A stretch of DNA of 64,000 nt, taken from assembly GCA_902728285.1 (NCBI GenBank), contig CACVBU010000600.1, forward strand, positions 3,299,101 through 3,363,100, written 5' to 3'. Positions 3,043 through 58,574 of the stretch are shown here, piece after piece; the stretch's first letter is position 1, and each line of letters starts with the position of its first letter. The stretch is from Clytia hemisphaerica. Taxonomy: Eukaryota > Cnidaria > Hydrozoa > Leptothecata > Clytiidae. The notes under the pieces are model-generated. The model did not search any database, was not told the DNA's origin, and was given only the letters and a program-made list of their open reading frames with translations. Both the position numbers and the translations under genes were made by a program.

Positions 3043-3301
3043 TACTCTTTTGTCCTTAATTTTAGGGGGGTCTAATAAACGGGAGGGGTGGGTACTCCAG
3101 GAGAAAATACATAAAATGGGGGTGTCTTAAAAAGTGATATTGGGATGATTTTCCTTAGAAGACCTAGGAAAATGAAGGTTTTCCACTTCTTCAGAAATTT
3201 ACCATGAAATGGGGGGGGGGTCATTACAAAATAATTTTGGGGGTGAAAAAATGGAAAAAATGGAAAATAACCCTCCCCTTACAATTAGGTACAAAAGAGT
3301 A
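3043..3301. mobile_element. TIR element in intron 1, G-run type
   Basis: Ends TACTCTTTTGTCCTTAATTT (left) and the inverted TACTCTTTTGTACCTAATTG (right) form terminal repeats, both followed inward by a G-run. The interior repeats ATAAA(A/C)(T)GGGGG-type words. It starts four bases after the donor GT of the recombinase intron and shares its right TA with the next element. The ends resemble the element at 48675-48988. Confidence 0.6.
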
Positions 3302-3435
3302 CACGCTTTTTTATAAGAATAACAGGGTGAGATTTCAGAGTTATAACAATAGGCCTTTTGTTTAGAACAATAGAAAAATAAGAATAATGCTCACCCTCAA
3401 CCAAAGTACACTATTCTTATAAAAAAAAGCGTGTA
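3300..3435. mobile_element. 136 bp TIR element, TACACGC family
   Basis: Left end TACACGCTTTTTTATAAGAA and right end TTCTTATAAAAAAAAGCGTG+TA are near-perfect inverted repeats. Both ends carry TA, as expected for a TA target duplication. Relatives with the same ends but other interiors are at 4040, 28910, 37331 and 49219. It abuts the preceding element, sharing the TA at 3300-3301, so it inserted at that element's edge. Confidence 0.7.
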
Positions 3436-3451
3436 TGTGATTGAATTTGCT

Positions 3452-3662
3452 TATTAAGGGAACTAATTTTGGGGGGAATTTAATCCGTCTGAAAATTTAA
3501 CCTTAAAATGGCGTAAAAACAGCAAAAAAGTAGCGAAAACCACCTTTAAAGGGTTCATATTTTCAAAAAGTTTAATTTGGCGGATGACGGAAAAAAAAAC
3601 CTTTAGCGAGAACTTAATTCGGCGGATTTTGGCCAAATCCTCCAAAATTAGTTCCCAAGGTA
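3452..3662. mobile_element. TIR element, GGGAACTAATTTTGG type
   Basis: TTAAGGGAACTAATTTTGG on the left and its inverse, CCAAAATTAGTTCCCAAGGTA, truncated by a base or two, on the right. The interior repeats AATTTAAT(C/T)(C/T)G-type and GGCGGAT words. It belongs with the elements at 13930, 20481 and 38455. It is the third element in the 764 bp first intron of the recombinase gene. Confidence 0.55.
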
Positions 3663-4039
3663 TACGTTAAGGAATTCCATTAATTTTATTGCGCCTTTTA
3701 TTTTCCGGCACTCCTTAAAACTCCACCCCCTTCCCCTGATTCAAGACATAATTTTAGAGGAGAGGCTTGTTTCTAGTTTTCGAAGTGTTTTTTCATTATA
3801 GGTAAAGGCGACTCGGAAAATACCGCGGTAACAACACCAACAAAAAGAAAAAAGTGGTCTCAAAACGAAGAGTCGACCTTGGTCGAGGCAATAGAGTCCG
3901 GGACACCTGTCAAGGAAATAGATGTTGAAGCAAGTCCGCGTCAAATAAGGGACAAAATTAGACGGATAAAGAAGTTTTCTACCAGTCCTGTTGGTAGTTC
4001 AGGAGTCCAATCTCCTTCAAGTCCCCTCTGTCATGTAAG

Positions 4040-4301
4040 TACAAGTTTTTTTTTTATATAAGGAACCTTAACTTTGCTCTGAGCCTGGAGTTCCTTATTT
4101 TTACAGAAAATTTCAGCCTCAAAGTTCCTTTTGAGTTCCTTATTTACATAGCTAGTTCAAGTGAAAACTCTTACTTTTACTGTTCCTTAGAACTTGTTTT
4201 CTTATTCTTAGCCTGAGCAGTTCCTTAACAATTCCTTATTTTTTGGACTACTTTCAGCCTCGAGTTCCTTATAAACGTGTTCCTTATAAAAAAAACGTGT
4301 A
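4040..4301. mobile_element. 262 bp TIR element with GTTCCTTA word
   Basis: Left end TACAAGTTTTTTTTTTATAT followed by AAGGAAC; right end GTTCCTTATAAAAAAAACGT then GTA. The interior contains about eight copies of GTTCCTTA or AGTTCCTTAT, the same word as the inner edge of the terminal repeat. It begins five bases after the donor of recombinase intron 2 (GT at 4035). Confidence 0.65.
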
Positions 4302-6202: not shown

Positions 6203-6239
6203 GTCTTTTGGGAGGCGCTCTACCTCGTTTTTTTCGTTC

Positions 6240-6644
6240 TACCTTATTGGTACTAATTTTTGCGCGTACCAATTAGAGAATCATCGCGATTTTCATCAGA
6301 CGACTCATCAGAATACAATTCCTCGTCTAGTATTTGTTCTTTGTCTTTCTTTTCTTCGTCTTCGTCTTCGTCTTCGTCTTGCACTTCAGGCCTTTGTGCG
6401 CAAAAATTAATACCGATAATTGGAAGACGATTTCGTAAAATTTGGTTTGGACACTGAAATGGGTGAAAATTACTATAAAATATACTAAAAAGTTGTGATT
6501 TTTCACAAAATATTCTTTTTGTTAAATTTGGCGGGGATTTAATTTTGCGAATTTTGTTAAAATTCGCCAAATTCGCCAAATTTAATCCCCGCCAAAAATA
6601 ATCCACTTAAGGTAATACGCGCGAAAATTAGTCCCAATAAGGTA
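6240..6644. mobile_element. 405 bp TIR element carrying a recombinase exon fragment
   Basis: Left TACCTTATTGGTACTAATTT and the right end inverted, TACCTTATTGGGACTAATTT, match at 25 of 27 positions, with TA at both edges. Bases 6275-6390 are an inverted copy of about 116 bp of recombinase block 1 (about 1864-1979, the acidic tract). An internal pair resembling the terminal repeats (near 6398-6424) suggests the fragment sits in its own smaller element. A second palindrome, GGCGGGGATTTAAT, lies at 6530-6595. Confidence 0.65.
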
Positions 6645-12210: not shown

Positions 12211-12331
12211 GGAAAAATTCCTTTAATTTAAAATAAAATACTACAAAACTACAGCGATTTTCGACAATAAAGTGATTAATATCGCCACTAGTGGATGGAA
12301 AGTTATTGCTATAAGATGGAATAAGAGTAAA

Positions 12332-12689
12332 TACTTTAATCGTAGAAATTTTAGCGAGACTAATTTAGCGTTTTAGCGAGTTTTCCCTATTTTCGCTAAA
12401 ATAAATCTCGCTTAAACACGCCGAATCGACAGGTTGCTAAAATTTATCCGCGCAAAGTTTCTGGTTAAATTGCCTTGATACATTTTTATCAATAGGAAGG
12501 GTTTCAGTGCAATGAAATGCTAGAAAACGAATTCATTCAATAATGTAATACGAGTATTCGCTAAAATTTATCCACGCAAAATTTTTTGAAATCGTGATTC
12601 GCTAAAGTAAATCCAAACAAAATCAAGATTTTCCTGACTCGCCAATATACGCTAAAATTAGTGTCGCTAAAATTTCTACGATTAAAGTA
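12332..12689. mobile_element. 358 bp TIR element, TACTTTAATCG family (unit 1)
   Basis: Ends TACTTTAATCGTAGAAATTT and the same sequence inverted, about 40 bp of matching terminal repeat, TA at both edges. The interior repeats CGCTAAAATTTATCC(G/A)CGC words that copy the inner terminal sequence TTTTAGCGA. It sits between the first and second ~110 bp sub-repeats and splits them. The two other copies are at 15609-15963 and 18884-19240. Confidence 0.75.
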
Positions 12690-20480: not shown

Positions 20481-20743
20481 TACCTTAAAGGAAGAAATTT
20501 TGGCGGGAATTTAATTTGGCGGTTGCTGAAAAATTTAACCTTTAAATGGCGTAAAAACAGCTAAAGAATAGCAAAAACCACCTTTAAAGGGGACACATTT
20601 TCAAAAAGTTTAATTTGGCGGGAATTTAATTTGGCGGATGGCGGAAAAAAGACATTTTTGCGGGAACTTAATTTGGCGGATTTCGGCCAAATCCGCCAAA
20701 TCCGCCAAATTTTCTTTCCGCCGAAATTTCTTCCTTTAAGGTA
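20481..20743. mobile_element. 263 bp TACCTTAAAGG TIR element, complete
   Basis: Ends TACCTTAAAGGAAGAAAT(TTTGGCGG) and the same inverted, 25 of 26 matches, TA at both edges. The interior is almost entirely the words GGCGGGAATTTAATTTGGCG and CCAAATCCGCCAAATCCGCC. The right breakpoint of the tandem array (GCGGGAACTT, ~20664) lies within it. Confidence 0.8.
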
Positions 20744-41060: not shown

Positions 41061-42660
41061 GAGCTGTGAAGACAAAGTTTTTTTTTAATACAAGATCTTG
41101 TAGAAAAACGCTCGCAAAGTAGATATTTTTCACATTTTGGATTCGTTTGGCTTAGAGGAGGTTGCGGATCATGTCTGATTTGCTTTTTCAGAAAAATTGT
41201 GAGAAATGAAAGGCGGAACGATTATGTCAGTAGGGAACTTTGCGATAGCTTGCTAACTCAACTAGATTTTCCTTGCAACTGTACCTAACTGACGTACGGG
41301 TCAGATCAGTGAGGGCAATTTTTCAGTCCCTTTTGATAACATTTTCATACTTTATGATAAAGACAAAAGACCCCGAGATACCAGGCTCTTTTAAACCACA
41401 AACGAGAAAACCTTTTATCGTTTATACTCCTTCTCTCATGGAAAAATATCTCCAGATTATCTTTCAAGGATGAAGAGTGAACCGTCCCTATTTTTCATTT
41501 TTTTAAATGAACAGCATAAAAGTTTAAAGAAACAATTTTATTATGAAGCAAGATGGAGCACACTCATTGGATTTTAAATTTAGCACGAGTTGTTGCGATA
41601 AACAGACTGTACCTTTAAAAGGTTGGTGAGTTCAGTCAAAACACAGATTTGATCTTCAGCGTCACGCTTCACCTTGTCTTCACCTTGACTCAATAGATGA
41701 GTCAAATTGAAACAACTCTCGCAAACAAACTCTCTGGTAGTTTTTCTTAACTTCAGAAAAGAAAATACCCTATTATGGCACACAAATTGAGTGTTTATTA
41801 CCTAGGAATAGGGCCCATAGAAATTCTTCAAACGGAGAAAAGTTTCATTCCATTTGTGATAAAAAAAGCTGGGCGATTTTATTCATTCATGCCAGCTGTA
41901 ATTCTGAAATATTAAACGACAAACTTACCCTTTTTTGCAAGACTTCATCGTTCCTGACACACACAGCAAACAAGCCAAGAATGGATCACTATTACTGGAA
42001 GTAAATATTCTAACTTCTTTATCGCAAACTGTACTGTAGTGTCAAGAGTAATAAGTTTGGAATCGAATCTAAAACATTTCCTCTCCAACTCCTCCAGGTC
42101 CAAAGCAAATTTTGAGTATTTGGATCAAGTGAAACATTTGCATCAGGGCTATGGGTTTACTTACTTGGAATACTATTCACCCTCCCCAAAGATTTAGACT
42201 TTCTCAAAGTCTTTGCCTTAATTTATTCTCCAATCCACAACAAAATATCCAGCCAAATATTTTTGTCTAGCACTAGCAGCACAGCAGAACTTCAGCAACT
42301 GACTGCACTCGAGAAAAAAAACAGCTTTACAGTACCTATTCTTCTATTAATAGATCCCATATTTCGGATCAACCAGGATAGATATATAACAAAAAAACTT
42401 TTTTTAATCAGTTTGATCATCCTGTCATCACGTCCCTATCTCACTTTATTTTTTTCATTCGAAATTCTTTTGTTTTGATTCGAATTCTGTGTTATTTTTC
42501 TTTCTTTCGTGACGTAATTGTGTTCTGCGTTTTAAAAACAAAATTCGATTGACTATTTTCGAATGTTTTGCAATGCAGCGCCTTCCGATTGGAAACCCCA
42601 ACCTCGTCCTCAGAGGTTAATATTTTCTCTTTGAAAACTTGACCTCTGATACTCAGGGTA
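41061..42660. other. Segment between the 241 bp direct repeats
   Basis: One exon-like segment (41750-41613, minus) is listed separately. Otherwise I see no coding sequence. The segment is the body of a possible 1841 bp partial tandem duplication unit. Confidence 0.4.
41613..41750 (-). CDS. Isolated exon, possible zinc-associated Cys motif
   Basis: Bounded by acceptor TTTTCTGAAG and donor AAG|GTACAG, 138 bases, open in one frame for 46 codons. It encodes FVCESCFNLTHLLSQGEDKV and then a predicted coiled stretch. CxxCF followed by a charged helix resembles the lead-in of zf-AD-type domains in invertebrate zinc-finger proteins, but only one Cys pair is present. No partner exons were recognised. 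Confidence 0.35.
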
Positions 42661-42901
42661 CACTTTTTTCGCTTAGATAAACTCACTTTCTTTCGCTTAG
42701 ATAAATTCACATTTTTTCGCTTAGATAAACTCAGTTCTTCGCTCAGTTAAACTCACTTTTTCTGGTAATGTCTAAGAAATCAAACCACCCCCGGGCCCTT
42801 TTATCACGAGTGTGATTAATTACGAGGCACGACCCACGAGGGCACGAGGGCACGGGACGCACGTAATTAATCACACTCTTTTATCACATATCAGGTTATT
42901 C
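42661..42901. repeat. 241 bp direct repeat, right copy
   Basis: Same sequence as 40820-41060, including two and a half minisatellite units at its left edge that have no array before them. That fits a copy made from the left locus. Confidence 0.8.
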
Positions 42902-44362
42902 TGTCGCTAAGATTGTTTTGGAGTCATTACATAATATGAGAGCAAGAAAAAGTAGACTGGAAGTCTAAACTTTAAAAACTCCTATATCAGGATTAGAAAC
43001 AAGGCTAGTCTTACCTCTTTTATCTTAGATGCTTAGATAAACTGACTCATCGCTTTAATAAACTATAAAACATTCAACACTTTTGGCTAAACTTTACTTT
43101 TTTGATGACTTTGATGACTCTGAGCACAGAAAAGTAGACTAGGAGCAATTGGCAATCCCTCGGCACTTTCTAATTAAGAGCAATTTTTTGCCGTCTTCAT
43201 GGAAACTTCAAAATTCTGCTGAAAAAGGCACGTACAAATTAGTGCGAAAGACTGCCTATCATTGAATTTGAAACCCCGAAGGGTGAGACTGGAATCTCTT
43301 GAATGGGAAATGATACCAGTTATTTCCCATCTGAAACGCGCTCCCCGCATGGTTTTCACACAAACGATGGATTGAAAATAAAATATATCACAAGATTTCG
43401 AAAATCTGCTACTCAAAAACAAAGAAGCCATTTTTAATTCAATCCGCCGGAAATATTGAAGGTTTAAGTTTTTCTTGCCTGGGAAAGGTTGAAGATTCTA
43501 CTCTAGCCCTTCGGGATTTAAACTCAATGCTGCCAATATAAAGCGGTCAACTTCACGCTCATGGTTTCAATCAAATTTATGCGTAATGATCAGACTGGAA
43601 AAGTCTAAATGGAGCCGAGTTTAAACAACCAAATATCACAAAATGAATTGACATGAAGCATCTTACAGTTCGATGGATTAAATTTATTCTGTAAGATAAA
43701 TAAACAAGATAACGCGAACAAAGTTTTACAATGAAGGCTCTTGTTCCTAGAAGCCTTTAGATAGAAGAAACAGGAGCTTCTATTTTTAGGCGTTGATAAA
43801 CACAAACGTAAGCTTAAAAAATGAAAGATAAATATAGGAAGTTGTTAGCACAAAATGCAATCAAATGATAAAACAATAGTGGTGACACATAAAAAATTTC
43901 TAACCTAAGCATAACAAAAAGGAAAAAACTTTCTGATCAAGTATTCCTTCCTCGTTGATTGTATACGGTATACAGCCGAAAAATTTCCATTTTCAGGAGG
44001 TTCAAAATGTCCAAGTAGTTAAAAGCTGGAATAATACAATGTCCCAGATAAAATATGTATCGTGTAATAACGCATGGACAAAAAATGATTGGGAAAATGA
44101 CTAAAACACCCTAAAAATGAACAAAAAAGACAATTCGTGGTATTCACGACGTTTACTTTACCTAAATCTTTAAAATGGTAAAATAAAATAAAACAAGCAA
44201 CATGCTGAATGGACCTACCTGTTGATCAAAATCAGATAAAAGTAGGTGTTCTACATTTTACTATTGGTATTGAGCAAACACAATAAGTTTTAGAACAATG
44301 AAAAACGTCTGATTTATTTTCTTTTATCATTGTGTAACTTGGTCGTCTTTGTTTGAAAACTT
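42902..44362. other. No gene seen
   Basis: A/T-rich non-coding sequence. Frames at 43174-43431 and 43605-43805 lack motifs and splice support. Confidence 0.4.
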
Positions 44363-45440
44363 TATGACGAAAAAAAATTTTCCGAGAAAAATTACTTCAA
44401 CCACATTTTAAAGTACCTTGCACTCTATCTTTCTGCCAAAAATCAGGAAAAACTAATGAAGCAATTTTGCACCAAGTCCAAAAAACCTTATTTTTAGGTA
44501 GTTTTTGGCCCAAATTTACCCCAATTTTTTTTTTCAAAATCGGGCTCCGTCACTTTTCAGGCATTGCTATTTTGTATCATTGTGCAAAAATGAAAAAAAA
44601 ATAAGGAGCCGATCCCGAGAAAAGCTGCTAACAGGAAAATGGTAAAAGGGAATTTCCCCAAAAAACGAAAATCCGTATTTTACGACGAAAAAAAATTTTC
44701 CGAGAAAAATTACCTCAGCCACATTTTAGGGTACCTTGCACTCTATCTTTCTGCCAAAAATCAGGAAAAACTAATGAAGCAATTTTGAACAAAGTCCAAA
44801 AAACCTTATTTTTAGGTAGTTTTTGGCCCAAATTTGCCCCCCAAAATTTTTTTCAAAAATCGGGCTCCGTCACTTTTCAGGCATTGCTATTTTGTATCAT
44901 TGTGCAAAAAATTAAAAACAACTAATGAGCCAATCCCGAGAAAAGCTGCTAACAGGAAAATGGGAAAAGGGAATTTCCCCAAAAAAGCGAAAATCCGTAT
45001 TTATTTGACGACGAAAAAAAATTTTCCGAGAAAAATTACTTCAGTCACATTTTAGGGTACCTTGCACTCTATCTTTCTGCCAAAAATCAGGAAAAACTAA
45101 TGAAGCAATTTTGCACCAAGTCCAAAAAACCTTATTTTTAGGTAGTTTTTGGCCCAAATTTGCGAAAATCCGTATTTGACGACGAAAAAAAAATTTTCCG
45201 AGAAAAATTACTTCAGCCACATTTTAGGGTACCTTGCACTCTATCTTTCGGCCAAAAATCAGGAAAACTAATGAAGCAATTTTGCACAAAGTCCAAAAAA
45301 CCTTATTTTTAGGTAGTTTTTGGCCCAAATTTGCCCCCCAAAAATTTTTTTCAAAAATCGGGCTCCGTCACTTTTCAGGCATTGCCATTTTGTATCATTG
45401 TGCAAAAAATTAAAAAAAACTAATGAGCCATTCCCGAGAA
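44363..45440. repeat. Four-unit tandem repeat (~320 bp unit)
   Basis: Units begin GACGAAAAAAAATTTTCCGA at about 44364, 44683, 45008 and 45181. The full unit runs through GTACCTTGCACTCTATCTTT, AAAAACCTTATTTTTAGGTA and TCACTTTTCAGGCATTGC(T/C)A. The third unit lacks its last ~150 bases. Frames on both strands are repeat artefacts. Confidence 0.85.
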
Positions 45441-45542
45441 AAGCTTGTAACAGACGAACGGACAACGGTCAAATTAAAGGACCTCCCGGTAGGTCCAATA
45501 ATATCGTCCTACCAACATAAATAAGATAAATCTAATATCTAA

Positions 45543-46006
45543 TACCTTAAGGGAAGAAATTTCCGCGAGAAGAAATTTTCGCGGAAGAAATTTTCGCGGA
45601 ATTTAATTTCGCGAATTTGGGCGTGATTCGCGAAATTAAATTCCGCGAAGCACACCAAAATTGTTAAATCGCGAAATTAAATTCCGCGAAATTCGATTTT
45701 TTTTCTTCTTCTTTTATTTTGTTGTTTTTGACCAGGTATTACCAAAAAAGATGGACACAATTGATTTTTAAGCATTATAACGTGTATTTTTTATGAAATA
45801 TAAACAAATATAAACAACTCCGTTATGCTTAAAAGTTAATCTAAGTTGATAAATTCTTCTCAATCGCGAAATTAAATTCCGTGAAACTTTTAAAATCGGC
45901 TCATTCGCGAAATTAAATTCCGCGAAATTTGCCATTTTGAAACTCTGATTCGCGAAATTAAATTCCGCGAAAATTTCTTCTCGCGAAAATTTCTTCCCTT
46001 AAGGTA
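45543..46006. mobile_element. 464 bp TACCTTAAGGGAAGAAAT element, strongest of its family
   Basis: Ends TACCTTAAGGGAAGAAATTT inverted at the right with no mismatch, TA at both edges. The interior is largely copies of the palindrome-like word TCGCGAAATTAAATTCCGCG (seven or so), in one orientation after the centre. No coding capacity. Confidence 0.8.
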
Positions 46007-46074
46007 TCTAAGTCTCGTTTCCAAAAATTTTGGCAGTCGGAAACTTTCAAGTCGGAAAGGATGACGTAATAAAA

Positions 46075-46217
46075 TACAGAGTCTCCATAACTTGAACCTA
46101 CATAACTCCTTAACTTAAACGATTCTTTTGATACCTTCCGAACAAATTCAGGCTATTTTCAGTCTCCTTAACTCGAGCGAAGTCTTTGAGAATTCGATTT
46201 ATGGAGACTTCATTGTA
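46075..46217. mobile_element. 143 bp pogo-like MITE
   Basis: Left TACAGAGTCTCCATAACTTG; right end inverse begins TACAATGAAGTCTCCATAAA. TA at both edges. AACTCCTTAACTT and CTTAACTCGAG words repeat inside. A relative is at 4617-4920. Confidence 0.6.
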
Positions 46218-46545
46218 TCGTTGGAAAAATGATTCTTAGCATACAATTTACAGACGCATAAATTTAGATATACAGTAGAATAAAATCATGAGTTTTCAGT
46301 TTCATTTTCAAATTTTTTGTGAATTGTAAAAATCATCTCTGACAATTATTATTTCAACGACACATCGTTTTCTACAAAAGGATGTTTTTTTCTTTGAGAG
46401 CAATCTATGAAAACGCTCCGATTGCCAGGATTTCTGGATCAGACTTTCTTCTTTTTTACAATTATATACAGCCGTTAAAAAATCTGGTCCTAAGTTACAA
46501 AGGTTAAAAACATATGTACACTTTTACATAAATCAATGTGTGTGG

Positions 46546-49500
46546 TTAGTGTTTCATTGGAGTGATAGGCGAACCGGGGACTAAGCCAACCCCTGGAATA
46601 TGCAACCAAACTTCTTGATGCTTCTCAATTTTATGTGGATCCAAAACAAATTTCTTTACGAGGGTTTGAATGCCCTGGCTAAAATCTTCTTTCGAATACG
46701 AACTCAGCTCATCGATAGAAGAACAGAAACCCAACCGCATCTCTTGCTTTTTGACCACAATTTTGTATAAGTCCTCTGACAGAGAGGCATTGTGCTCCGA
46801 TCGAACACTCGGTGGGATCAACATAAATCCACTGACAAGTGTTTTTTCGACACCGTATGGGATTTGCAATTTTTGTCTCAGCATCTTATTTAACGTGATT
46901 CGGGAGAGTTCTTCAGGGGTGTAGTCCTTGAATTCGAATCTTTCCTTAATCCTTCTTCGCACACCACGGTTTACTTTTTCCAAAAATTTATCCATATCTT
47001 TTGGGTATCCAGCAAAAATGAACACTGGGTATAGATCTTTTTGACCACTTGGAGGAGGGTTCATGTACCTCATTATGGTCTCAATTGCTTCGTTGGAGTG
47101 AGTCGATGGATCGGTTTCTTTATTTGGCACTAATTGGTATGCTTCATCTATAAACATAAGCTTGCCGAAGGCAGATTCGATGACTTTTTTGCAGTCTTTG
47201 GCAGTTGCAGAAACGTACCCAGAGACAATATTTTCCTTCTGAACTTCAACAATGTCCGGAGATTCCAGAACTCCGAGCTCGTGTAGTATACCTGAAGTTA
47301 AAAGGTAAAAAAAATATTCATCTATAGTGTTCGCAAACAACAAATATAGTCCGTTCATTTTCAATTTCTTTAAACTATCAAATACAGTGAAATTTTAGGG
47401 TTTAAAAAAGAACCATTATCCACATGATGTGAACGGAATATATATCAGTCAACTCCAAATTTCAATTTGAGAATATACCGTTTAAGTAAAAACATACTTG
47501 CTAAACATCTGGCGATCATCGTTTTTCCAGTACCAGGATTACCGCTCAAAATCATGTGCATATTGGATACCATTTCACCACGTGTTAAAGAGCCAATGTT
47601 ATTTTTTCGTTTAAGGTCTTGCATCAGTGTATGATGAGCCCATTCAAAAATATGTTGCTTTAATTCATCTTGACCTTCAATCAGGGAAAGTTGAGCATTG
47701 AGCTTTTCAATTATTCTGTCGAATTCTGATAAATAAAATAAATCGAAATAGATGAAATACAGCACCAACCTGACTTTTCAAATGAGAGATAATTATAGCA
47801 AAATGCAAAATGCAACAGAGGAACAAATTAAAGATCCGATATATGTAATGAAAAAGTAATTAGAAGCTTTAGTCTAGGGATAACAATTTGACTCATTTTC
47901 TCATGAAACAAAAAAATTCAAATGAATAAATACCTCCTTGTAAGCTTCCATCATTTGAGCGTTTAAGCTGAAAGAATAAAAATAAGAAGTTAAGTTTCTT
48001 TTCTAATCAAGTTGACAAACCCCTCAGCTAGATAATTGACTTGAGGAAAATGTTATTATTAAGATAACATAAAGTGATGACCTTTACAATCATTTTTCGA
48101 GCAGTCATAGACATATTTTCACTTACTGAAGTCTCACTACTTTGGATAGCCTTTTTTGTTGAGAGTCTGAAATGAAATGAGAAATACCATCTTCATAAGA
48201 TTTTGAATTCAACTATTAAACAAAGCCCGAATAAAAATTATTTGTAGCCTGATTAATGCTCGCAATGGTCTGTTTTTCTCAATTCGATGCCTTCTGGTCA
48301 AAGCTAAGATTTATGACAAGGAATTAACTTCAAACTTTACCTTTTAAACAAAAATTGGCCAAAAACTTCAATTGAATCTATGTTTGGTTCATCTTTTAAA
48401 GTCTCTACAGTATTAGCACCATCGTTATCATCTGGTTTTGAATCAGCATACACCACAAATACTATGAAATATAACAAGTCAGATCTCAGACTTGTTAGCC
48501 TAAGTACAAAACTCAAATGGTAATTGGCTAAACAAAATTTCTCTACAAATAAAACTATTGAAGGGTTGTTTTACCAAGAGAGATCTTTGCAGATATGAAG
48601 TTTTGACAGTAAAGTTAGAGTATTAGAAACATAATACAACAATTTAATCGCTTGGTTGCTGAAATTAGAATGCGTACTCTTAGGTGCCAAATAAACGGGG
48701 GGTTCGAATAAACGGGGGGGGGGTGGAAAAAATTTTCAAATCAAATAAACGGGGGGGGACCTAATTACCGGGGGGGGTTGGAAAATGGACTTTTAAAAAC
48801 CCTAAAAAGGGTCAAAATAGACCAAATTTAGGCTTTTTAGAGTAAAACAAGAAACTTTCCTTTTGGGAGCTGGGAATTTTTTCAAAAATTGATAAACGGG
48901 GGGTCCTAATAACGTCCGGGGGGTTGGAAAAAAATCGAAAAATTAACAAGCGGGGGGGGGGGGGCCGTTTATTTGGCACCTAAGAGTACATACAAATATT
49001 AGTAAATATACCTTTTTGACATAATGGAAGCTTTTTGTTTACGAAATCCTTCAATGACATCTCAGCAGTATGAACACTCCCATTCGCATACACTTTGCTG
49101 AATAATTTAAAAAATGCAACGATGAAGAGTCACAAACATAACAGAAAAACAAAAAATAGAACCCCATTGTAAGATCTATTAAATTTGAAAACAGATCGAT
49201 CCTCACTTAGTAAGTATTTACATGTTTTTTTTTTTATAAACATAACGCTTATAAGCATATGAAGGCTCAGATTTGCAGAATTCCTAAGCATAACATGAGC
49301 ATATATGTCAGCCTGAAATATTTTTCAAGTGGTCATTTTTATCTGTTTTTGTTTCATTTTTATCTGGTTTGGTAGAGGCCAAGTAAAAAATAAGACATTC
49401 CACGGCTAGCTGCATTCCACTGCTCCCAAAATCTGAACAAATTTTTTTACAAAATTTCTGAATTCATTAAAAAACTTGGCACAGGGTGAATCATAAGCAT

Positions 49501-52500
49501 AATTCTTAAGCATATAATAAGCATAAACTATGCCTGGATTCTTTGAGAACTTAAGCATACACGAGCCTGACCAAGGGGCATACACTTGCTTATAAAAAAA
49601 AAACATGTACTAAAATTAAAAGGAAAATCCAAAAAGCATTTGAAGACATGATATTGAGCCTTACACAAATTTGTTTCTTTTATGACGTAGGGCTATGATA
49701 TGTTTATCTTCACAAATTGCAACAACAGCGGTGAGGGAAAGTACTCCTTTGGAAAAATCTTTCGTATCGTGAAGATTTATTTTTTTGATTTCGTCTACAA
49801 GCACAAGTTTCGATGAATCCTAGGTTAAAAAGAGACAATATTAGCATTCACAAAAACACTCCCTTAAATTTTCGAAGGAATAGAGGAATGGCAACAAGTT
49901 TACCAAGGGTATTTGTAGTCTGAAATTGATATAACTTAAAAAAATGCAATAAAAAGTTTTCTCAAAATATACAAGATTGATCACTCTCTGAAAAAATCCT
50001 ATCAAAATAAGCAGACATTCTCAAACAATCAACATATAGTCCTGTAGAATTTCAACAAAAAAGGGTCTTAGGTGGGAAAATATTAGATAAAGACATAAAT
50101 ATTATATACCATTGAAAAGGAAATTTTATGTACAGTAGATTAAGAAAAATAGTATCATCTGGAAGCTCTCAAAAAATAAGGATTAGATATATATTACGAG
50201 TATAGGTGAATTTTGTACTTAACTCGAAATATCAAGCCTCGAAGTTGTGAAAAATTGCTTAAAAAGTCCCAAAAAGGAAATTCTACAGGACTAATAAGGG
50301 ACTTTCCTGTGGTACCCTGGGGTGGAAAAAAATCGAAAAATTTACAAGCAAGGGCAGGCAAGGGGGTGTCTATTTGGCATTTGAGTGTATGTCTTACTTA
50401 CTTTGAATTCAAGAAAAAGAACTTCTGGAAGCTTCCGAAAGAATTTTCTTGCGTAAACGCTTTCACCTAAGTAAAGAAGTGTAATATCATTCTAAATGCT
50501 GTAAGTACTAGTAGCATATCTATCTACCATTTTCACTAGTACTCTCTCACCTCATACACAATGGATTGAATTGGGTCAGTCACTGACAGGCTACTTGACA
50601 TTCATAGAATGCAGAGGGGTCAAGCTCCCAGCATTTTTCAGGGGAGCTAGCGAAAATTGCCACCAGCTATATCTTAAAAACCTTTTTCGTAGAGGTGTCA
50701 AGACCTTCCACATGGCATAGATTTTTAACATGATTTAAAATTCATTGAAACTGATCAGCTCTGCTCTCAATCTGATCACACAACTATAAGCCCCCACCCT
50801 AAAAGCTAGTCCCCTGTATTTTTTGAAAAATACAGCCAAACCAAGCAAAAATGGTTTAGCCCATTCTAGGAATATGTCTACCTTATTCCCTCACGGTGCA
50901 CGGGTTGCCCCAGGCAAAGAAGGTACATTATCTTGCCAAGTGTATCACAACATCACCTAAGAATCAAACCCTGACCTCCTGGAAGGCAGTCATGCTACTA
51001 AACCGCTACACATTTCACATATCTAAGAACACATACCTTTCTGAATAGTATATTTTTCATCATCATATGGGAACTTGCATTCGTTTCTCTCCATAAACGT
51101 GTTCAGTAAATCTTTGATATTTACTTCTTTATCGTCAAACTTGATCGTTTCAATATCTAATTAAAAAAAAACACTCATTTTTTCCGAATGACCTGGTCCA
51201 ATGGCAAGCATCCACTAATCACAGTTTTTCAGTACGTTTAGAAAAATTATCAAATTTCAAATTTGTAAAAATTTGACGTTTCAAATAGCATGTGCATATT
51301 TTTCTTCTAGATAGGGTTCCAAATTTGTAATTGAAAACAATATAACAAGATGACAGCAATTATGTGTATTAGGTTCTTTCAGAACTTTTAAACTCGTGAT
51401 CTAATAATAACTTAAAAATATTTTGCAAGAAATAATTAAACTTACCAATATCAGGAACGTGTTCAAAACCGTTTTCACCAAGGTATTCAGTAACCAGTTC
51501 AGAGGATAAGATTGGAAGGAAGAAAAATTGTGACCATGTCTTAAAAAGAAAAAAAATCTTTAAAAAATCCACTATTTGTCTTTTAGTGAGATGAGTAGAG
51601 GACTTTTTTCATTGACTTTTGTGTAAATGGTTTGTTGCTGTGAAGGTTTAGATTTTCATAAAACAGGAAAATTTCATTTCGCACAAGAAACAATTGTAGT
51701 CTGATAGAATTAAAATTTGACCTTGAAAAAATTTCTGCACTATTTTTCTTGGTGCAAACAAGACCCCAATACGATGTAGAACAACATATCCAAAGCCTCA
51801 CTCTGAGGCCCTTAGGTAGGGACCGCACGAGACGGGGGTAAATAGATTGAACTCGACCAAATTCTTGATCTCAAGATCTAGGCCACTTCAAATCATGGAG
51901 TAAAGTTTGTAGGCATTCTTATCATAAAAGATATCTCCTGAAAAATTTTCAAGTCTTAAACTTTATTATCTAGGAAATTAGGGCAATTTTCCCAATTATT
52001 TCCAGCAAAAATGATTTTCCAAAAGGTATTTGATTAAAAAATATTAAATCTGAATAGGTAGTAAGTTACTAACCTCACTATCAAGATCTCGTAGTGCATT
52101 TAGTAAAACTTTGAAAGTGTCACCAACAGAAAAGTTAGGATGGAGACGCAGGACAGTTGCTAATTCACTTAAAGCCATATTCCAACAACTCTTGAGGTTT
52201 TCGTTCTCAAAAAGTATCATCACCTGCAAAACACATACAAAAAGCATAATTGTCTTTAATCAAACTCAACAAAGATCCTCAAGACAATGATCTACCTGAT
52301 GAGTTTTTGGTTGACCTAAATGGAAGTGGGGTTATCAGCAACACAAGAATGTTTTTATTTGGAGTACCAACTTTTGACAAGTCTTTGAAAGCCACTGCAT
52401 CAAAAATAAATTCAGGGTCTGTTGAAACGTGTTTAATTTTTCTGTCTCTCCCTTCTCGTCTAACATAAATATGATTAAACCCACTTTCGTTTTTATAAGT

Positions 52501-52869
52501 GAGTTTTTTTTTTTCTGTTTTTAAATAAGTGAATATTTTTGTTTTCACCTCAGCTTGGTCCATATCAGTAAACAGTTGTATCTTTCCACTACAAATGCAT
52601 TTTAGTTCATTTTCTAATATAAAATTGTCCGTTTCACGATCTAATTTCTTATAAATATCAATTCCAGGATATTGGAAATATGTGACAGTAAAACTCAGTC
52701 GCTGACGGTTTGAAGAAGCAGTTGTTGTTGACTTCTTTTTGGTTGACTTCTTTTCTTTTCCACTTTTTTTGGTGTTGTAAACTCTACCTGGATTGTACCG
52801 GTTGGTGTTGTCTCCAAGGCTACCAAGAATAGATCTTACTTCTGTGGTCTCATTACCGTGTCTATCCAT
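46546..52869 (-). CDS. Twelve-exon gene: USP-like region fused to CbxX/SpoVK-type AAA ATPase
   Basis: Minus-strand exons: 52869-~52345, 52223-52074, 51539-51446, 51156-51037, 50466-50402, 49819-49665, 49097-49012, 48461-48341, 48166-48127, 47967-47934, 47725-47498 and 47291-46546 (stop). Phases match at all junctions; only the first donor (weak GTGTTG) is uncertain. The ATG at 52869 opens a Lys/Ser/Thr-rich N-terminus. The middle exons give LPEVLFLEF, LSLTAVVAICEDKHIIALRH and KFVKVYANGSV, which resemble the late core of USP deubiquitinases (LP..L.L.. and GHY box), without clear catalytic residues. The C-terminal exons form an AAA module: GNPGTGKT (Walker A), LMFIDEAYQL (Walker B), FIFAGYPKDMDKFLE, then RGVRRRIKERFEFKDYTPEEL, as in CbxX/CfqX. 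It is intact by sequence. Introns hold at least four mobile elements. The biological role is unknown. Confidence 0.8.
48675..48988. mobile_element. 314 bp TACTCTTAGGTGCC element with AATAAACGGGGGG word
   Basis: TACTCTTAGGTGCCAAATAA at the left and the same inverted at the right, TA at both edges. The interior is AATAAACGGGGGG and variants (ATTACCGGGGGGG, GATAAACGGGGGG, TAACAAGCGGGGGG). It lies in the intron between the 49097-49012 and 48461-48341 exons. A decayed relative is at 50215-50390 and ends similar to these bound the element at 3043. Confidence 0.75.
49219..49609. mobile_element. 391 bp TACACGC-family element with TAAGCATA word
   Basis: Left TACATGTTTTTTTTTTTATA, right TTGCTTATAAAAAAAAAACA then TGTA. 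The interior repeats (T)AAGCATA at least eight times, in both orientations relative to TTATAAGCATA. It lies in the intron between the 49819-49665 and 49097-49012 exons. Confidence 0.65.
50215..50390. mobile_element. Decayed relative of the AATAAACGGGGGG element
   Basis: The right part GGGGGTGTCTATTTGGCATT then TGAGTGTA matches the right end of 48675-48988 with several changes, and GGTGGAAAAAAATCGAAAAA is shared. The left end (GTACTTAACTCG) is only weakly similar. It lies next to the 50466-50402 exon. Confidence 0.45.
50800..51012 (-). mobile_element. tRNA-derived SINE in an intron
   Basis: Minus strand: TAGCGGTTTAGTAGCATGAC is an A-box-like start and GGTCAGGGTTTGATTCTTAG a B box about 32 bases later, as in a tRNA. 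A non-tRNA body follows with GCACCGTGAGGGAATAAGGT. The head fits a tRNA-like 5' region with D-arm and anticodon-arm remnants. No poly-A tail is clear. Confidence 0.6.
51817..52010. mobile_element. Partial hAT-type TAGGGACCGC element
   Basis: TAGGGACCGCACGAGACGGG starts a segment that resembles, in reverse orientation, the right end of the nested element at 57396-58380, including GCATTCTTATCAT(A/T)AAA. No right end was found. It is intronic in the USP-like/AAA gene. Confidence 0.5.
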
Positions 52870-53823
52870 TGTTGAGTCTACTATTTATGTCTACAAATAA
52901 AAAATGAGAAATTTATTATCAAATACATACAGCAGAGATGAGTTATTAAAAAGTTTGTTTGCATTACTTTATTTTTCATAGCAAATAAACCAATAAATAA
53001 AAAATTACATTCTTGATCTTCATTTAGGTCAAAATGGTGCGCCATGTTTTTCAGAGAAGAAGTTATTCACTGATATCTTAGACATGGTTTTTTCTAGTAT
53101 GTTTGTTCCCCTTGATTGTGAGTAAAAAATTGCTGTCCTCTCCCTTTTTTAGTCCCCTTTCAAGGTTTGAAAAATGACACACCTGACTTGAAATTCCTTT
53201 TTTCTACATTAAAATATTTCTAATTTACTACCTAAACAGTAAAATAATGCTTCTGAAATTTAGGTGGTAAGAATTGTTTGCAAGTCCTTTTTAGGCGAAG
53301 GCTAGACAATCAATATTCTCTCCTGTAATTTTTGCATTGCAAACCCCTGAGAAATTGCACAATGTAGCCACTCGATTTACCTGCAATTTTCTTTCAATGC
53401 AGTATTTTATTGCAGAAAATAATTCAAGAGTTTTGCAATACAATGGATCTGATCTATTTTGTTGCAACCCTTGCAACTTTTTTTCTACAAAAGAGAGGGA
53501 CTATTCTTTGCTTTTATTTTCTTTGTTTATCTTATTTTTGAGAATTGTTTTGATAGTTACTTTTCCCTCTTATTTTTGAAAATATTGATTAATTTTTAGA
53601 CAACACAAACTTCAAGTGCGGTGCGTACAATGCAAAAGTTACAAGCAATATTGCTTCAGTGTAGCCTTAAGCTTAACTTTACTAAACTTTTTTTCACACT
53701 TATCATTTTGCAACTGATCCCTAAACTTGTCTTATGTATAATCATTTAAATTTTAATTAATTATTTCCGAAACTCTCCTTTTAACTTCTTGGAAACATGC
53801 AATACCATGGTTCCCATCATCAT
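52870..53823. other. Space between the AAA gene and the integrase; no gene seen
   Basis: Holds the presumed promoter or 5' UTR of the USP-like/AAA gene and the 3' flank of the integrase, both minus-strand genes. TTGCAA-rich short words recur around 53330-53480. No clear TATA or initiator element can be claimed. Confidence 0.4.
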
Positions 53824-54930
53824 TTAAAGGACTGAATTCACTTTTTTTGTTTCCAAAATATCTACATGGTTCGTCAACATAACATCATGCAGTTCAACTG
53901 TTGTCACATCATCCGGCATGCAATTGAGGTTGGACGAAACATCAACTCCAAACAAATCATCATGTGTATCTGCGTAAAACCTCCTGACACCTCTTTGTGC
54001 TTGTTTCTCACTATCAATCATGCCCAAGGTCCAAAGCTGGTATGGTGTTTGATTTGATTCTGTTGACAGTTTATGGTGGTTCCACCCTTCTTGGAATTCA
54101 TCTAACGATTTTTGAATCCTAGGCACGTAAACAAAATGCAAAACAAAACGGTCAACATCATTATCCTTGCGAAGACATCCAATTTCTTCCATGAATTTGA
54201 AGAGGTCAATAAAATATACTAATACACAGTGTGTAGTATCATAATGCAACCTCTCTATCCTTTGATTGTGGACTGATTTTCCTTGAATGTATGCTCCCTC
54301 GTATCCTTGCTTCTCTCTCATGTATCGCATTATTTGAACATTTTCACCACCTCTGTCTCCTCTAACACGTGCTGGTATGCCATAAGCAGCTACTCCTTTC
54401 AAAAACCCTTTCAAAGCAGTTCTTGAATAATTATTGGTGGCACAGAGAAGAGATGTCACCATCCTGGAAAAACCATCAATACACGCATGAATTACAAAAT
54501 CCCATCTGATAAGTTTATGCAAACCATCGTTGTGCCAGAGGCTATTTGGGCCTGGTACACTGTAAACCCATCTTGGATTGCGTTGTAACCATCTTTTTAC
54601 AGTGTTGATAGGATCCACTCTATGGATACTTGCTCTTACTCTCCATCTTTGTAGATGGTATCCTCTGCTTCTCAATATACCACAAACCATTTTCTCCCCT
54701 ATTAATGGGCGACTTTGTTTGATTTCAGCTACTTCAGTATCCAATTGTTCATCCCTTAAATCTGAGTATTTGAGTGTGACATTAAACCCCTCTGCTTTCA
54801 TTTTTCTCCACAGAGTTGTACGGTCAATACCAAAGATTTTAGCAATGGTTGATAAATTGAAGTGACAATCTCTCAGTGACTCCAGCACGTTAAAGTCTAT
54901 TTTATAAGGCTGGTCGCCCAGGAAGGCCAT
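53824..54930 (-). CDS. DDE integrase core-domain protein
   Basis: 368 codons on the minus strand. The N-terminal helix-turn-helix is HFNLSTIAKIFGIDRTTLWR. The integrase core has catalytic-type residues in LWHNDGLHKLIRW (first Asp), RVRGDRGGEN (second Asp) and SVHNQRIERLHYD (Glu). The C-terminal part with EGWNHHKLSTESNQTPYQLW is typical of the single-exon rve-type genes that are frequent in corals, other cnidarians and fishes. The apparent ATG at 54930 is probably internal, because the upstream frame ends in GLPGRP, which in this family leads straight into this domain. No inverted repeats or long terminal repeats were seen beside it. Host-gene or transposon status is undecided. Confidence 0.85.
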   Translation of the reverse strand: MAFLGDQPYKIDFNVLESLRDCHFNLSTIAKIFGIDRTTLWRKMKAEGFNVTLKYSDLRDEQLDTEVAEIKQSRPLIGEKMVCGILRSRGYHLQRWRVRASIHRVDPINTVKRWLQRNPRWVYSVPGPNSLWHNDGLHKLIRWDFVIHACIDGFSRMVTSLLCATNNYSRTALKGFLKGVAAYGIPARVRGDRGGENVQIMRYMREKQGYEGAYIQGKSVHNQRIERLHYDTTHCVLVYFIDLFKFMEEIGCLRKDNDVDRFVLHFVYVPRIQKSLDEFQEGWNHHKLSTESNQTPYQLWTLGMIDSEKQAQRGVRRFYADTHDDLFGVDVSSNLNCMPDDVTTVELHDVMLTNHVDILETKKVNSVL

Positions 54931-55270
54931 TATTATGAACAGGTATTAACTTCAAATTTGTAGAATTTCCAACTTTTATTCTATTTTCAGCACTTTCTTC
55001 ATGTTTTTCTTCCCAAATCATAACCAAATTATCAATATGGGGGGCTATTCTGACGAGCTTATCAAAAGTTTCCTGATTGAACGTTTGTTTAATTGAGTTT
55101 TTTATTGAGCATATAAGCTTGATTGAGTTTCTCAGACATTTTATTCTTAGAAGCATATATTTTGCTACTTTCTTGTTGGCATCTTTGTACCTTCTATCAC
55201 TTTCATCCATAAGTTTTGAGATGTGTTTTAACAAATCATTTAAACCTGAATTGTTTAAATCAAAATCCAT
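54902..55270 (-). CDS. N-terminal region of the integrase protein, separate frame
   Basis: 122 codons from ATG at 55270, overlapping the integrase frame by 29 bases. It is helical and basic with several Lys/Arg pairs (DESDRRYKDANKKVAKYMLL), and ends HNNGLPGRPAL. GLPGRP is the usual spacer before the helix-turn-helix of this integrase family, so the two frames were probably one protein. A single-base change at about 54905-54912 would join them; an assembly error or programmed frameshifting are alternatives. Confidence 0.65.
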   Translation of the reverse strand: MDFDLNNSGLNDLLKHISKLMDESDRRYKDANKKVAKYMLLRIKCLRNSIKLICSIKNSIKQTFNQETFDKLVRIAPHIDNLVMIWEEKHEESAENRIKVGNSTNLKLIPVHNNGLPGRPAL

Positions 55271-57006
55271 GTTTACTTTAATCGAAAGACTAAAAATGAT
55301 TAAATAAAGAAATTATCAGAAATGAATACTTTTTTTAAAAACTAGATAGAAAAAACATATTTCAGAATCGTTCCAGGTATATACACTTTTGTGGCAGAAA
55401 ATAGGTATTTTTCACTCTGAAAGTTACATAGCTGCTGATTGACACAATTTTAAGAAGCCAGAAAAAATTCTCCTGGTTTTTCTAGGAGATAAAATTATTA
55501 AAATTTGTTGAAACACCTAGCATACAGGATAAATCTAGTTTCAAACAAGGATTCTGCCCTTATAATTTTCTTATTTTTTCTACGATTACTACAATTTTAA
55601 GCCAGATAGGGGTTCGGTTATTATCAGTAGGGTCACCAGGGTTTAAGCTCTAGAGACAATCGGGTTGAGCGCCTTTTTTGAGGCACCAGTAGGGTTAGGA
55701 GTAACATGATTAGAAGAATATAGGACTGAAGGCCCTTTTGGGGCCACCAGTTGTTGGGAGTTGTCCCTTTGTAAAGAGATCTGTCATTTCATTAATTTCA
55801 AAAATTGTCCCCCCTGCAGATTTTTTCTCCGGTGCTCAAAACTATTTGAAAATGCTTAAAAAATTTTTGACTTCTCCTAAAATTATATTAGGGAAAAAAA
55901 ACAAAAAAATCAGCCGCAAAATTCTTAAAAATACATCACCATAAAAACTGATCTACTGAGAGTTATGGGCTGAAATTTTGCACAGTGACTTACTTTCAGA
56001 TGCAGATTAAGATAGCATAATTGTTTTTTCCATAATGAGGCTATCTCAAGATGGCGTCTGAACAGGTGGGACCGATAAGTTGTTTTGACTGTTTAGGCCA
56101 AAACCAGTCAATTTTGGGTAGAAAATTGTTTGAAATGAACTTTTTTTGTTTATTTTCTTATTCTTTATGATAATATGAATCTCTATACAAAATTTCCGCT
56201 TTCTAGCTTGATTCAACTAGAAGTAAGATAAGAGAATGTACTGAAAAATTAAGCAAAATGAGCCACAGCTCTGCTGCCATCTTGAAAAAAATCAAAATTT
56301 CAAAAAATTGGACTTTTTTTTAGTTTCTATGACCTTTTTCCTGATAGAATAAAAAAAAAACTAAAAAATGCTTTTCCAGTCTGATTTTATCACAATTTAA
56401 AGATAACATCTATTTTGCTAATTTTTCAGAATTTTTAGGGACTTTTGCGCCTTTTTTAAACTTATACCTGACGTTATCACGTGATTGTTCATTTTTTGAA
56501 AAAAATGTTTTATGTGGTTCCTTCCAAACATAACGAAGTATCTTTGTGCAAAATTTCATTCAAAAAGGTCCAGCCAATCTCTGGAAATATTTATTTAAGG
56601 GGGGGGGCAATTTTTGGTCCTGCCAAAATCCAAAAAAGTCTGGTCCAAGTAGGGTTAAAAGTCTACATAAGGGACCCTGACCAGCGGCACGTCCCTGTAC
56701 CCAATTTTGCCTAAGTGTCCCCTCCCCCGTCGATTGGCATTTTAGTAAAATTGGGCCCAGAAAGTCAGACATTAAAAGAAGAGAAAATGAAGAGAGAGGG
56801 CAGAATGGTTGTTTGAAACTAGAATTTTCCTCGCAGTTTGAAAAAAACCTCACATTGGAAGTTGCCCATAACCCAATTTTTCACTTTCCCAACTTTCTAT
56901 GCAAAATGGCCAATGAGAAAAGGATTAGTTGTTGCAGCCTTTCCTGAACTTTGTATTTTAAGGACCAAACAGGTCATTCATTTGAGGGCTATGCATGTTA
57001 GCCTCC
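55271..57006. other. No gene seen; CACCAGTAGGGTTA-type words
   Basis: AGTAGGGTCACCAGGG, GGCACCAGTAGGGTTAGGAG and GGCCACCAGTTGTTGG recur at 55628-55760 and GTAGGGTTA again at 56649. A G-run at 56597 and a C-rich end near 56720 (AATTTTGCCTAAGTGTCCCC) may bound another element. No exon with good borders. Confidence 0.4.
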
Positions 57007-57012
57007 ACTGAT

Positions 57013-58574
57013 CAAGGCGTAGTTAATCGATATAATCGATAATCTTGAATAATCGATAAATAATCGATAAGTAATTGATGGATTAGATATCGATTAACCG
57101 ATAGAATCGTGAGGTAATCGATACTAAAGATTTTTTCAAAGCTCGATTATTTATCGATCAATTTTGTCATTTATTGTTTACCGATTATAGATCGATTATA
57201 CTTCGATTAAATTAAGTATCGATTAAAAATTGATTGGCTATTGATCACAGCTGTCGATCACGATCGATATAATCGATAACGATACATGAGTGAAGATAAG
57301 TAAATAATTGATAAGTAATCAATGCACGAACGATAAGTAATCGTCGATTGTTAACAATCAATACATGATTGATAAGTAATCGATAGGTTGTATGTTAGGG
57401 ACCGCAATGATTTTTTCAAATTGTTTTTAGCGCATTGAAACCATGCTCATTGGAAAGAGCATCAAAAAAGAAAAAAAATGAGGGGTCATTCATCAAAATC
57501 GGCCAAGCCGTTCTCGAGATATGAAATTTTCTATCTCCTGAAAATGACCCTTTTTATGGAACGATTTTCGAGGATTTTTGTAAAAATCATAGTTAAATAA
57601 GTTTAAAAGTGAAAATCCGGGGGTTATGTCGAAAAATACATTTTTTGCAATAACTTTACTTCTATTAATGCTATAACATTGAAACTTGGCACGAAGGTTC
57701 TCAAGACAAAGTTTTAATTTTTTATCAATTTTTTTTTTCAAAATTCTCGTTTGCCGTACGAATGAATCGAAAATATCCTGTATGCCGGAGAGCTGGCAGA
57801 TTGTCACTCTCCGTGGACTTTGAACTTTCGAATTGTAAACAAACACGCGCTCGACAATTCTGTAGAATTTCTCGAATACCAATAAACTTTGAGCCAAAAA
57901 AGACAGCAGAGCGCGGTTGAAAATGTTAATTTTTATTAACAAAGAATATGTAAAAAAGGTTGAAATTTCATATTATCTTTGTCTTAATGCCGGGGAGGAC
58001 AGCTAAAGCCCTCAAAAGTGGCTTTTTCCCAGAAAAAACTGAATAATCTTTTGTAGGATTTGATTGGGTCAATGAGACAAAAAAAACAAACACCGCTGAT
58101 CTCTTCCAGTTCCAAAAATGTATAACATCATGGGGGTTTGAGGACGCGCTCACCTGTCTAAATCCAATTTTCTGTTGGTAGGTCGTCTGCCATTCAAAAT
58201 TTTACAAAATTGCTCATATTTTCATAAAAAATAAAGTTATGGCCACCAAACTTTTACAGGACATTTATTTAATGATAAGAATGCTTCTAAAACTTATCCC
58301 ATGGTTATAGGTAGTCTAAAACCTAAAAACAACATTTTGGTCGATTCCAACCATTTTACCCCCGTCTTTCGCGGTCCCTATGTATGTAGTCCATATGTGA
58401 TCGATAAGTAATCGATAGCTTGGAAATAATCGATTGCTGATTGATACTCAAGATTTTTTGAAGGTCTGATTACCTATCGATTCTATGGGTTAATCGATAT
58501 CTAATCCATCGATTACTTATCGATAATTTATCGACTACTCAAGATTATCGATTATATCGATTAACTACGCCTGG
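57013..58574. mobile_element. 1.56 kb hAT-type element built of ATCGATAAGTAATCGAT words
   Basis: About 100 bp terminal inverted repeats start CAAGGCGTAGTTAATCG (left) and, inverted, CCAGGCGTAGTTAATCG (right). A YARNG-like start and flanking ACTGAT (57007-57012 and 58575-58580) suit hAT elements, although six rather than eight bases match. The terminal regions are mostly ATCGATAA, AATCGATA and GTAATCGAT words. No transposase; the centre is taken up by the nested element. Confidence 0.75.
57396..58380. mobile_element. 0.98 kb element nested in the ATCGATAA element
   Basis: Starts TAGGGACCGC and ends GCGGTCCCTA, flanked by TGTATGT on both sides (57389-57395, 58381-58387). A YARNG start and a 7-8 bp duplication suit hAT. 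The outer word repeat (ATCGATAAGTAATCGATA) resumes on the far side. Frames within it (57493-57942, 57968-58153) have no transposase motif. Confidence 0.7.

Follow-up and report, generated by a model that had tools for sequence, protein, structure and literature searches.

A large group of miniature inverted-repeat transposable elements (MITEs), here called group A, carries short repeated words near its termini in the hydrozoan Clytia hemisphaerica. Members were recognized in a 64-kb stretch of the 417-Mb, 951-contig assembly GCA_902728285.1 (contig CACVBU010000600.1, positions 3,299,101 to 3,363,100; hereafter, the window), which is AT-rich and crowded with transposable elements. In the copies sampled, group-A elements are inserted at TA, possess ends of two types that recur thousands of times in the genome, and bear their words at near-fixed distances from those ends; between families, the letters of the words differ in concert. 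In the copies examined, this ladder of binding-site-like words appears to document a joint evolution of transposons and their DNA-binding proteins. The words are probably arrays of candidate binding sites for a multi-site transposase or accessory protein, in which geometry would be kept while specificity drifts. A sequence-only reading of the window had described elements with terminal inverted repeats (TIRs) that were each filled with a private word copied from the inner edge of their own TIR, and this interpretation is partly supported overall.

Group-A Elements and Their Target Site

The following members lie in the window.

3300..3435, + strand: A1, short group-A MITE, word TAAGAATA, non-significant in shuffle tests
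4040..4301, - strand: A2, group-A MITE, word TAAGGAAC (GTTCCTTA), family F3/GAAC, identified from words, TIRs and genomic matches
28910..29253, - strand: A3, group-A MITE, word TAAGAATA/G, second motif ATGATG-like, family F1/AATR
37331..37570, - strand: A4, remnant of a group-A MITE that lacks one TIR, word TAAGAACA
49219..49609, + strand: A5, group-A MITE, word TAAGCATA, second motif AGGCT, family F5/CATA

Forty genomic matches to A2 were scored, 39 of them besides the window's own, with identities of 94-100%. The flanks of A4 resemble, by eye, the reverse transcriptase of a long interspersed nuclear element, and with one TIR missing A4 is not the full TIR element it had been taken for. A1 adjoins a group-C element, C1, at 3298-3301 with one TA in common, and one of the two may have inserted at the other's target.

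The group-A end can be written TACAYGYTTTT...ATAAG. Genome-wide, the pattern TACACGYTTTTTTN{0,4}ATAAGNANN has 8,742 exact matches versus 0 when reversed, and a second pattern that admits TACATG has 6,226 matches versus 4 in its control. The ends sampled from these form a non-random set, drawn mostly from the first listed contigs and holding many copies of few families. Group A has the features of MITEs, namely lengths of 121-440 bp in 40 of the 43 listed elements, TIRs, high copy number, and no coding capacity.

Sampled elements were binned by word count and length, which makes the following averages of own words partly a matter of construction: 6.15 copies of TAAGAACA in the AACA bin (13 elements, mean pairwise identity 0.854), 6.8 of TAAGGAAC in the GAAC bin (5 elements, 0.959), and 4.4 and 2.8 of its own two words in the AATR bin (10 elements, 0.870). 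Independent of the binning are the pairwise identities of 0.85-0.96 and the near absence of foreign words, with AACA elements averaging 0 copies of TAAGGAAC and GAAC elements 0 of TAAGAACA. Ten further elements fell into an "other" bin, and five short ones into a mixed bin with a mean identity of 0.70. Clustering by interior similarity, blind to words, separated the AATR, short, and CATA elements, and joined AACA and GAAC via a composite locus.

The claim that outer ends are kept while the word differs by family is therefore borne out in genomic copies of the AACA, GAAC, and AATR bins, with two amendments. Group A keeps TAAG, and only the letters after it change, so the word is not wholly replaced. 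The outer ends also co-vary with the word, with exceptions; among the ends listed, TACACGC occurs mostly with AAT, TACACGT mostly with AAC/GAAC, and TACATG mostly with CAT. As for the word being private to its element, TAAGGAAC (7 copies in A2), TAAGAACA (4 in A4), and TAAGCATA (6 in A5) each have 0 copies in the window's other group-A elements, but TAAGAATA is common to A1 and A3.

Group A inserts at TA. Element flanks joined around one TA were compared with sampled DNA (167 queries, with both strands and overlapping loci counted), and empty homologs with TA at the junction were found for five group-A elements (L010, L064, L078, L100, and L121; three AATR and two CATA), a count that leaves out the self-locus matches of L006 and L050. 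A second, more distant element-free homolog of L010 carries GA at the junction. Assignment of group A to the type with TA..TA termini and a 6-bp duplication was dropped, as its flanks do not match and the empty sites show TA.

A Ruler of Words in Two End Modules

Measured in base pairs from the TIR word, the first end type carries same-strand words at 15, 48 (46 for AAC), and 59 (57 for AAC), and an extra one at 96-97 for AAT and GAA. The other end type carries inverted words at 32-33, 66, and 77-78. Exact-match offsets agree to within 2 bp across the four words wherever the listing threshold is reached; for CAT, this holds for offsets 15, 48, 33, and 78 only, and not for 59 and 66, and the CAT consensus has a distance of 11 between the third and fourth words (W3-W4).

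Dropping 15 ends with other suffixes from 138 distinct sampled ends left 123 with the four common suffixes. The first ruler (word at 15±1, at most one mismatch) fits 52 of them, the second (inverted word at 31-34) fits 49, and both together fit 0; control offsets displaced by 5 or 10 bp fit 0 and 0 of the 123. Left-module families (F1-F5, F7, F8, and F10; also F6, which is short, and F9, a single sequence) were drawn from the 49 of 152 ends selected for a second word at 14-16, so that their W1-W2 distance of 14-16 carries no evidential weight. Their W3-W4 distance is 11 in seven of eight families and 13 in one, and W2-W3 is 31-33.

In a 1,906-bp element, TAAGCAT occurs at 20, 35, 68, 1804, and 1849 and in inverted form at 1882; two stray copies of CAAGCAT lie in between. 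This confinement to 20-68 and 1804-1882 points to two end modules and a variable middle. The interior is thus not filled with the word, as had been supposed, but consists of two modules of about 100 bp and a middle of variable length; the typical short element brings the modules together. No description of such a ruler was found among the papers listed by the literature searches, as judged by titles and abstract openings.

Concerted Differences Between Families

The words (W) are accompanied by a second motif (Z). In AACA and GAAC elements, AGGCT lies 10-13 bp after W2, W4, W7, and W8, and the second-motif slots hold an ATGATG-like motif in AATR and an AGGCT-like motif in CATA, each in either orientation, and AGGGTGA in F7.

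All group-A words have a common TAAG core, and the suffix letters after it differ identically in every copy. This was compared among F1, F3, F4, F5, and F10 (the last a single sequence), which have identical left spacing; other left-module families, with slightly different spacing, were excluded. Between any two of the five, the core differs at 0-1 of 16 sites, and across all ten pairs the spacers differ at 5-16 of 25. F3 differs from each of F1, F4, F5, and F10 at 8 of 12 suffix sites, two of the three positions showing the same change in 4/4 copies, and at 5-14 of 25 spacer sites; these four pairs are non-independent, since F3 is in each. The clearest is F3 versus F10, with spacers 80% identical (5/25 differ) and 8/12 suffix sites changed. 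F4, F5, and F10 have the same word, and F1 differs from these CAT families at 4 of 12 suffix sites (A-to-C), all four copies alike. Taken with the F3 pairs, this would imply at least two concerted word changes.

Proposed Mechanism

Because the words lie in TIRs, stand at fixed offsets, are family-specific, and differ in concert, they look like sites of the family's own transposase or accessory protein. Group A would then be a large group of non-autonomous cut-and-paste transposons, the typical element amounting to roughly two subterminal protein-binding modules. In the sampled copies, one end carries W at 0, 15, 46-48, and 57-59, in some families also near 96, and the other inverted W at 0, 32-33, 66, and 77-78, with Z 10-13 bp after W2, W4, W7, and W8. 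W and Z would be half-sites for the DNA-binding domains of the family transposase or of an accessory protein encoded by the transposon. Several subunits would form a synaptic complex whose geometry sets the word spacing, and the outer TACAYG end and TA would be handled by the catalytic core. Were the binding domain to shift its specificity, only copies with all words matching would keep moving; all words, including the TIR word, would change together, and order and spacing would remain. Two points of this account are inferred: the identity of the binding protein as the transposase, and selection for matching words as the force behind the change.

More tentatively, group A might be a series of binding-site rewrites, in which a transpososome with W and Z at about a dozen near-fixed positions had its half-sites swapped in concert. 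The variants would be AAC, GAAC, AAT, and CAT for W (at least two swaps) and AGGCT, ATGATG, and AGGGTGA for Z, and the rewriting is perhaps driven by escape from titration by the transposon's own many MITEs.

Several observations weigh against binding arrays that evolve with their protein. Neither ruler fits 22 of the 123 ends, and these ends are non-independent, many being copies of few families, and were taken largely from contigs at the top of the listing. Families and words do not correspond one to one: F1 and F7 both carry AAT with different Z, AAC is common to F2 and F8, and CAT to F4, F5, and F10. The families also share descent, as in-register spacer identity is 0.38-0.61 versus 0.27-0.28 when shuffled (p 0.0005-0.06; positions include Z), and part of the fixed spacing may therefore be inheritance and not constraint. 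Finally, the autonomous element with the same ends that the sequence-only reading had proposed to look for was not found among the DDE_3 loci, the 1,906-bp element, and the lone ends examined. Of 115 DDE_3 matches, 13 were examined as whole loci, and 0 of these 13 carry the outer group-A end; in two of the loci examined (L130 and L131), a sequence that partly resembles it, ACATGTTATTTATAAG, stands next to the gene and lacks both TA and ruler words; and the 1,906-bp element, the sole long one examined, has no open reading frame (ORF) above 112 aa.

A lone end at L020, considered as an autonomous candidate, is a MITE interrupted by another insertion, and neither the group-A end nor the integrase had a match in a viral collection. 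The DDE_3 transposase genes themselves, at L124-L128, L132, and L134 (contigs C254, C248, C491, C625, C907, C564, and C224), are in several cases tandemly repeated, the period being 4.0-4.4 kb for the most part. A divergent ORF beside them resembles Rep (weak, below-cut-off matches to PF23343, PF00799, and PF00519 in the three scanned; others by eye), and the units at L124-L128 contain a palindrome of 100-256 bp that is 74-95% self-complementary.

The detectable homology of spacers between families would also suit ordinary divergence of one ancestral element into old families, with spacing inherited without special constraint. With the motifs masked and gaps allowed, the spacers of AACA and GAAC showed no similarity (0.593 vs 0.578±0.045). 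When independent divergence was roughly simulated (200,000 draws), two fully concerted positions arose with a probability of about 5e-6 to 5e-5, which makes the same two changes in four word copies improbable. Ordinary divergence is thus contradicted for word identity and may still explain part of the spacing; as a full account, it is improbable. Slightly less probable still is that the words bind a host factor acting in transcription, replication, chromatin, or silencing. Repeated short words serve as replication iterons in other elements, and no transposase is linked to group-A ends, both of which would favor a host factor; however, the word is part of the inner TIR and differs among families of one genome, which a single factor would not explain.

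Other Elements of the Window

Further elements were assigned to groups B, C, and D, and several lie inside a 19.8-kb element (features are unstranded except where noted).

3043..3301: C1, group-C element, no significant word
6240..6644: B2, group-B element, TACCTTATTGG end, GGCG/AATTTAAT words
12332..12689: B3, group-B element, TACTTTAATCG end, word TTCGCTAAAATTTATCC
20481..20743: B4, group-B element, TACCTTAAAGG end, word AATTTAATTTGGCGG
40096..59873: 19.8-kb element, termini TATGACGCGCC...GGCGCGTCATA, flanked by an exact 6-bp repeat, CTTTTC
45543..46006: B7, group-B element, word TTCGCGAAATTAAATTCCGCGAA, tandem copies of inner TIR part
46546..47777, - strand: pieces of a CbbX/EccA-like AAA ATPase gene, within the 19.8-kb element
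48675..48988: C2, group-C element, TACTCTTAGGT end, word AATAAACGGGGGG
53824..54945, - strand: integrase/transposase ORF, PF24764 rva_4, E=6.7e-74, inside the 19.8-kb element
57013..58574: D1, element with TIRs of about 105 bp made of ATCGAT words

Word enrichment was assessed in two ways. The commonest exact 8-mer (both strands, TIR arms removed, 400 dinucleotide shuffles, 18 intervals) reached the floor p=0.0025 in eight intervals (A2, A3, A4, A5, B4, B7, D1, and E1) and p=0.042 in B3; it was non-significant in B6 (0.052), A1 (0.08), B2 (0.11), and C2 (0.14), and in B1, C1, P, G, and F (0.7-1.0). As 9 of 143 control windows of 250 bp, with 100 shuffles each, gave p<=0.01, this test is somewhat liberal in this genome. 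The second test used 12-mers with up to two mismatches (60 shuffles, floor p 0.016) in 16 intervals, leaving out E1 and B6 and trimming D1 to 450 bp. It gave p 0.016 for A2, A5, B2, B3, B4, B7, and D1 and 0.049 for C2, and was failed by A3 (0.34) and A4 (0.20).

At least one of these two uncorrected tests was passed by all nine intervals named in the sequence-only reading, as well as by B2 and E1, and the asserted enrichment over shuffled sequence holds to that extent. Neither was passed by A1, B1, C1, P, G, or F, and B6 missed its single test, so that 7 of 18 intervals passed none and the recurrent pattern is partly confirmed; the count is about 11 and not "at least a dozen". The element starting at 3043 has TIRs but no significant word. 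That the word copies the inner TIR edge is exact for both arms of A2, B3, B4, D1, and C2 (in C2 for one of five tied top words) and for one arm of B7. The exact top word is in neither arm of A3, A4, or A5, whose TIRs carry variants of their own word one or two bases off. E1 (22012-22756) was set aside, its TGCGTGAA block being absent from its arms; the block has matches near 8492-8566 and 60907-61033, and E1 may be nested.

The seven intervals without a significant word and the liberal controls are what chance or low-complexity bias would predict. Set against these are floor p values in eight intervals, thousands of ends versus 0 reversed, and 0 ends at displaced offsets; chance is refuted for group A, and its overall probability is close to nil.

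Group-B words have a common GCG-box/AATTTAAT layout by eye. Word pairs lie 41 bp apart in both halves of B3 (12392/12433 and 12557/12598) and of B7 (45627/45668 and 45863/45904), whose word differs from that of B3, and 42 bp apart in B4 (20623/20665); the spacing of about 41 bp is thus seen in two or three group-B elements only. B3 recurs near 15609 and 18884 within a tandem triplication, and the corresponding site in the neighboring repeat unit is almost empty, differing by 3 bases. The triplication spans 11631-20674, with a unit of about 3.27 kb that is 99.7% identical, and holds copies of B3 and B4. For most of their length, B1 (3453-3663) and B4 share 79%, but both TIR arms differ alike (GAACTAAT vs GAAGAAAT), so that in group B, too, ends have changed in concert. 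The type with TA..TA termini and a 6-bp duplication was considered for group B as well and dropped; B7, which has a longer flank match, TATCTAA, by eye, may be an exception. C2 has a further copy in L101. D1 is flanked by a 6-bp direct repeat, ACTGAT (57007-57012 and 58575-58580), which places it in a different group and not among TA insertions. The principle proposed for group A might conceivably extend, in other superfamilies, to groups B, C, and D.

The sequence-only reading had offered two mechanisms, very fast co-evolution of binding sites or a copy process that spreads the inner end inward. By such copying, through gene conversion, template switching, or tandem duplication, the interior would come to consist of the element's own word. 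Tandem copying does occur: B7 has tandem copies of the inner TIR at 45552-45613 and 45966-45996, words in B4 lie 16 bp apart, and long arrays of words stand at the ends of the 19.8-kb element. In group A, however, the flanks of the words (picked with at most one mismatch) agree no better than small AT-rich samples (column frequency 0.45-0.55, 4-9 copies), and separate copying would not recreate offsets that are common to families with different words. Inward spreading is therefore an unlikely origin, and co-evolution fits better, because spreading predicts neither a common spacing nor a strand pattern that differs between ends.

The 19.8-kb element itself has matching termini TATGACGCGCCTTATG (TATGACG...CGTCATA) and TTCGCTTAGATAAACT arrays near both ends, and B7, C2, A5, and D1 lie inside it. 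Its PF24764 ORF has a weak match to the retroviral integrase core, and its two AAA ORFs presumably form one gene. In the excerpted account of PMC10045372, IS3EU/GingerRoot elements have TA..TA termini, 6-bp duplications, and an integrase-like transposase. The 19.8-kb element shares all three, with a putative transposase recognized by its Pfam match, and appears IS3EU-like; it differs from that account in its length, its word arrays near the ends, and its AAA gene. A 52-bp repeat, AGTTAGTACAGTGTACTAAAAGGGTGGT, flanks it in the same orientation at 38988-39163 and 60002-60284, and a 24-bp minisatellite, ATCCTATTCTTCTTTTGATCCTTG, occupies 61107-63055 in about 80 copies.

Comparison with Known Systems and Significance

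Like MITEs of the IS630/Tc1/mariner type (Stowaway), group A has a TA target, short TIRs, high copy number, and no coding capacity. Some IS630/Tc1/mariner members have a few inner direct repeats; ruler-spaced subterminal words are no defining feature there, and no matching transposase is linked to group A. Elements of the hAT superfamily make 8-bp target duplications, unlike group A with its TA junctions. The transposase of one hAT element, Herves, depends on an 8-bp subterminal motif, and its left and right ends are asymmetric (PMC3143072, in excerpt); group A likewise has a short subterminal motif, a putative binding site, and asymmetric ends. In the CMITE families of corals, several MITE families have a common internal region, and conservation is higher there than in the TIRs (PMC2872659, in excerpt), whereas in group A the ends, core, and spacing are conserved and the letters of the word change.

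A precedent for constant ends with a changing word, of which the sequence-only reading knew none, is CACTA. The excerpted account of PMC2613891 describes conserved 13-bp TIRs with subterminal motifs that diverge between families within soybean, and, in En/Spm and Tgm, repeated subterminal motifs that are bound by an element-encoded protein and keep a partly common portion; the general subterminal layout is given in PMC8978399, likewise in excerpt. Group A resembles CACTA in its conserved ends and family-specific subterminal repeats. It differs in having TACAYG ends and a TA target in place of CACTA ends and a 3-bp duplication, and in a word that is also part of the inner TIR and lies on a ruler, of which there is none in the excerpted account of CACTA (PMC2613891).

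The co-evolution of transposases with their ends is usually inferred from few elements. In group A, several families of one genome have the same scaffold, different words, and thousands of end copies. Once autonomous partners are found, the order and rate of the changes, and their link to residues of the binding domain, should become readable, and the ruler would predict the subunit layout of the synaptic complex. If the proposed reading is true, group A would provide a readable record of a multimeric DNA-binding system changing its code with its geometry unchanged.

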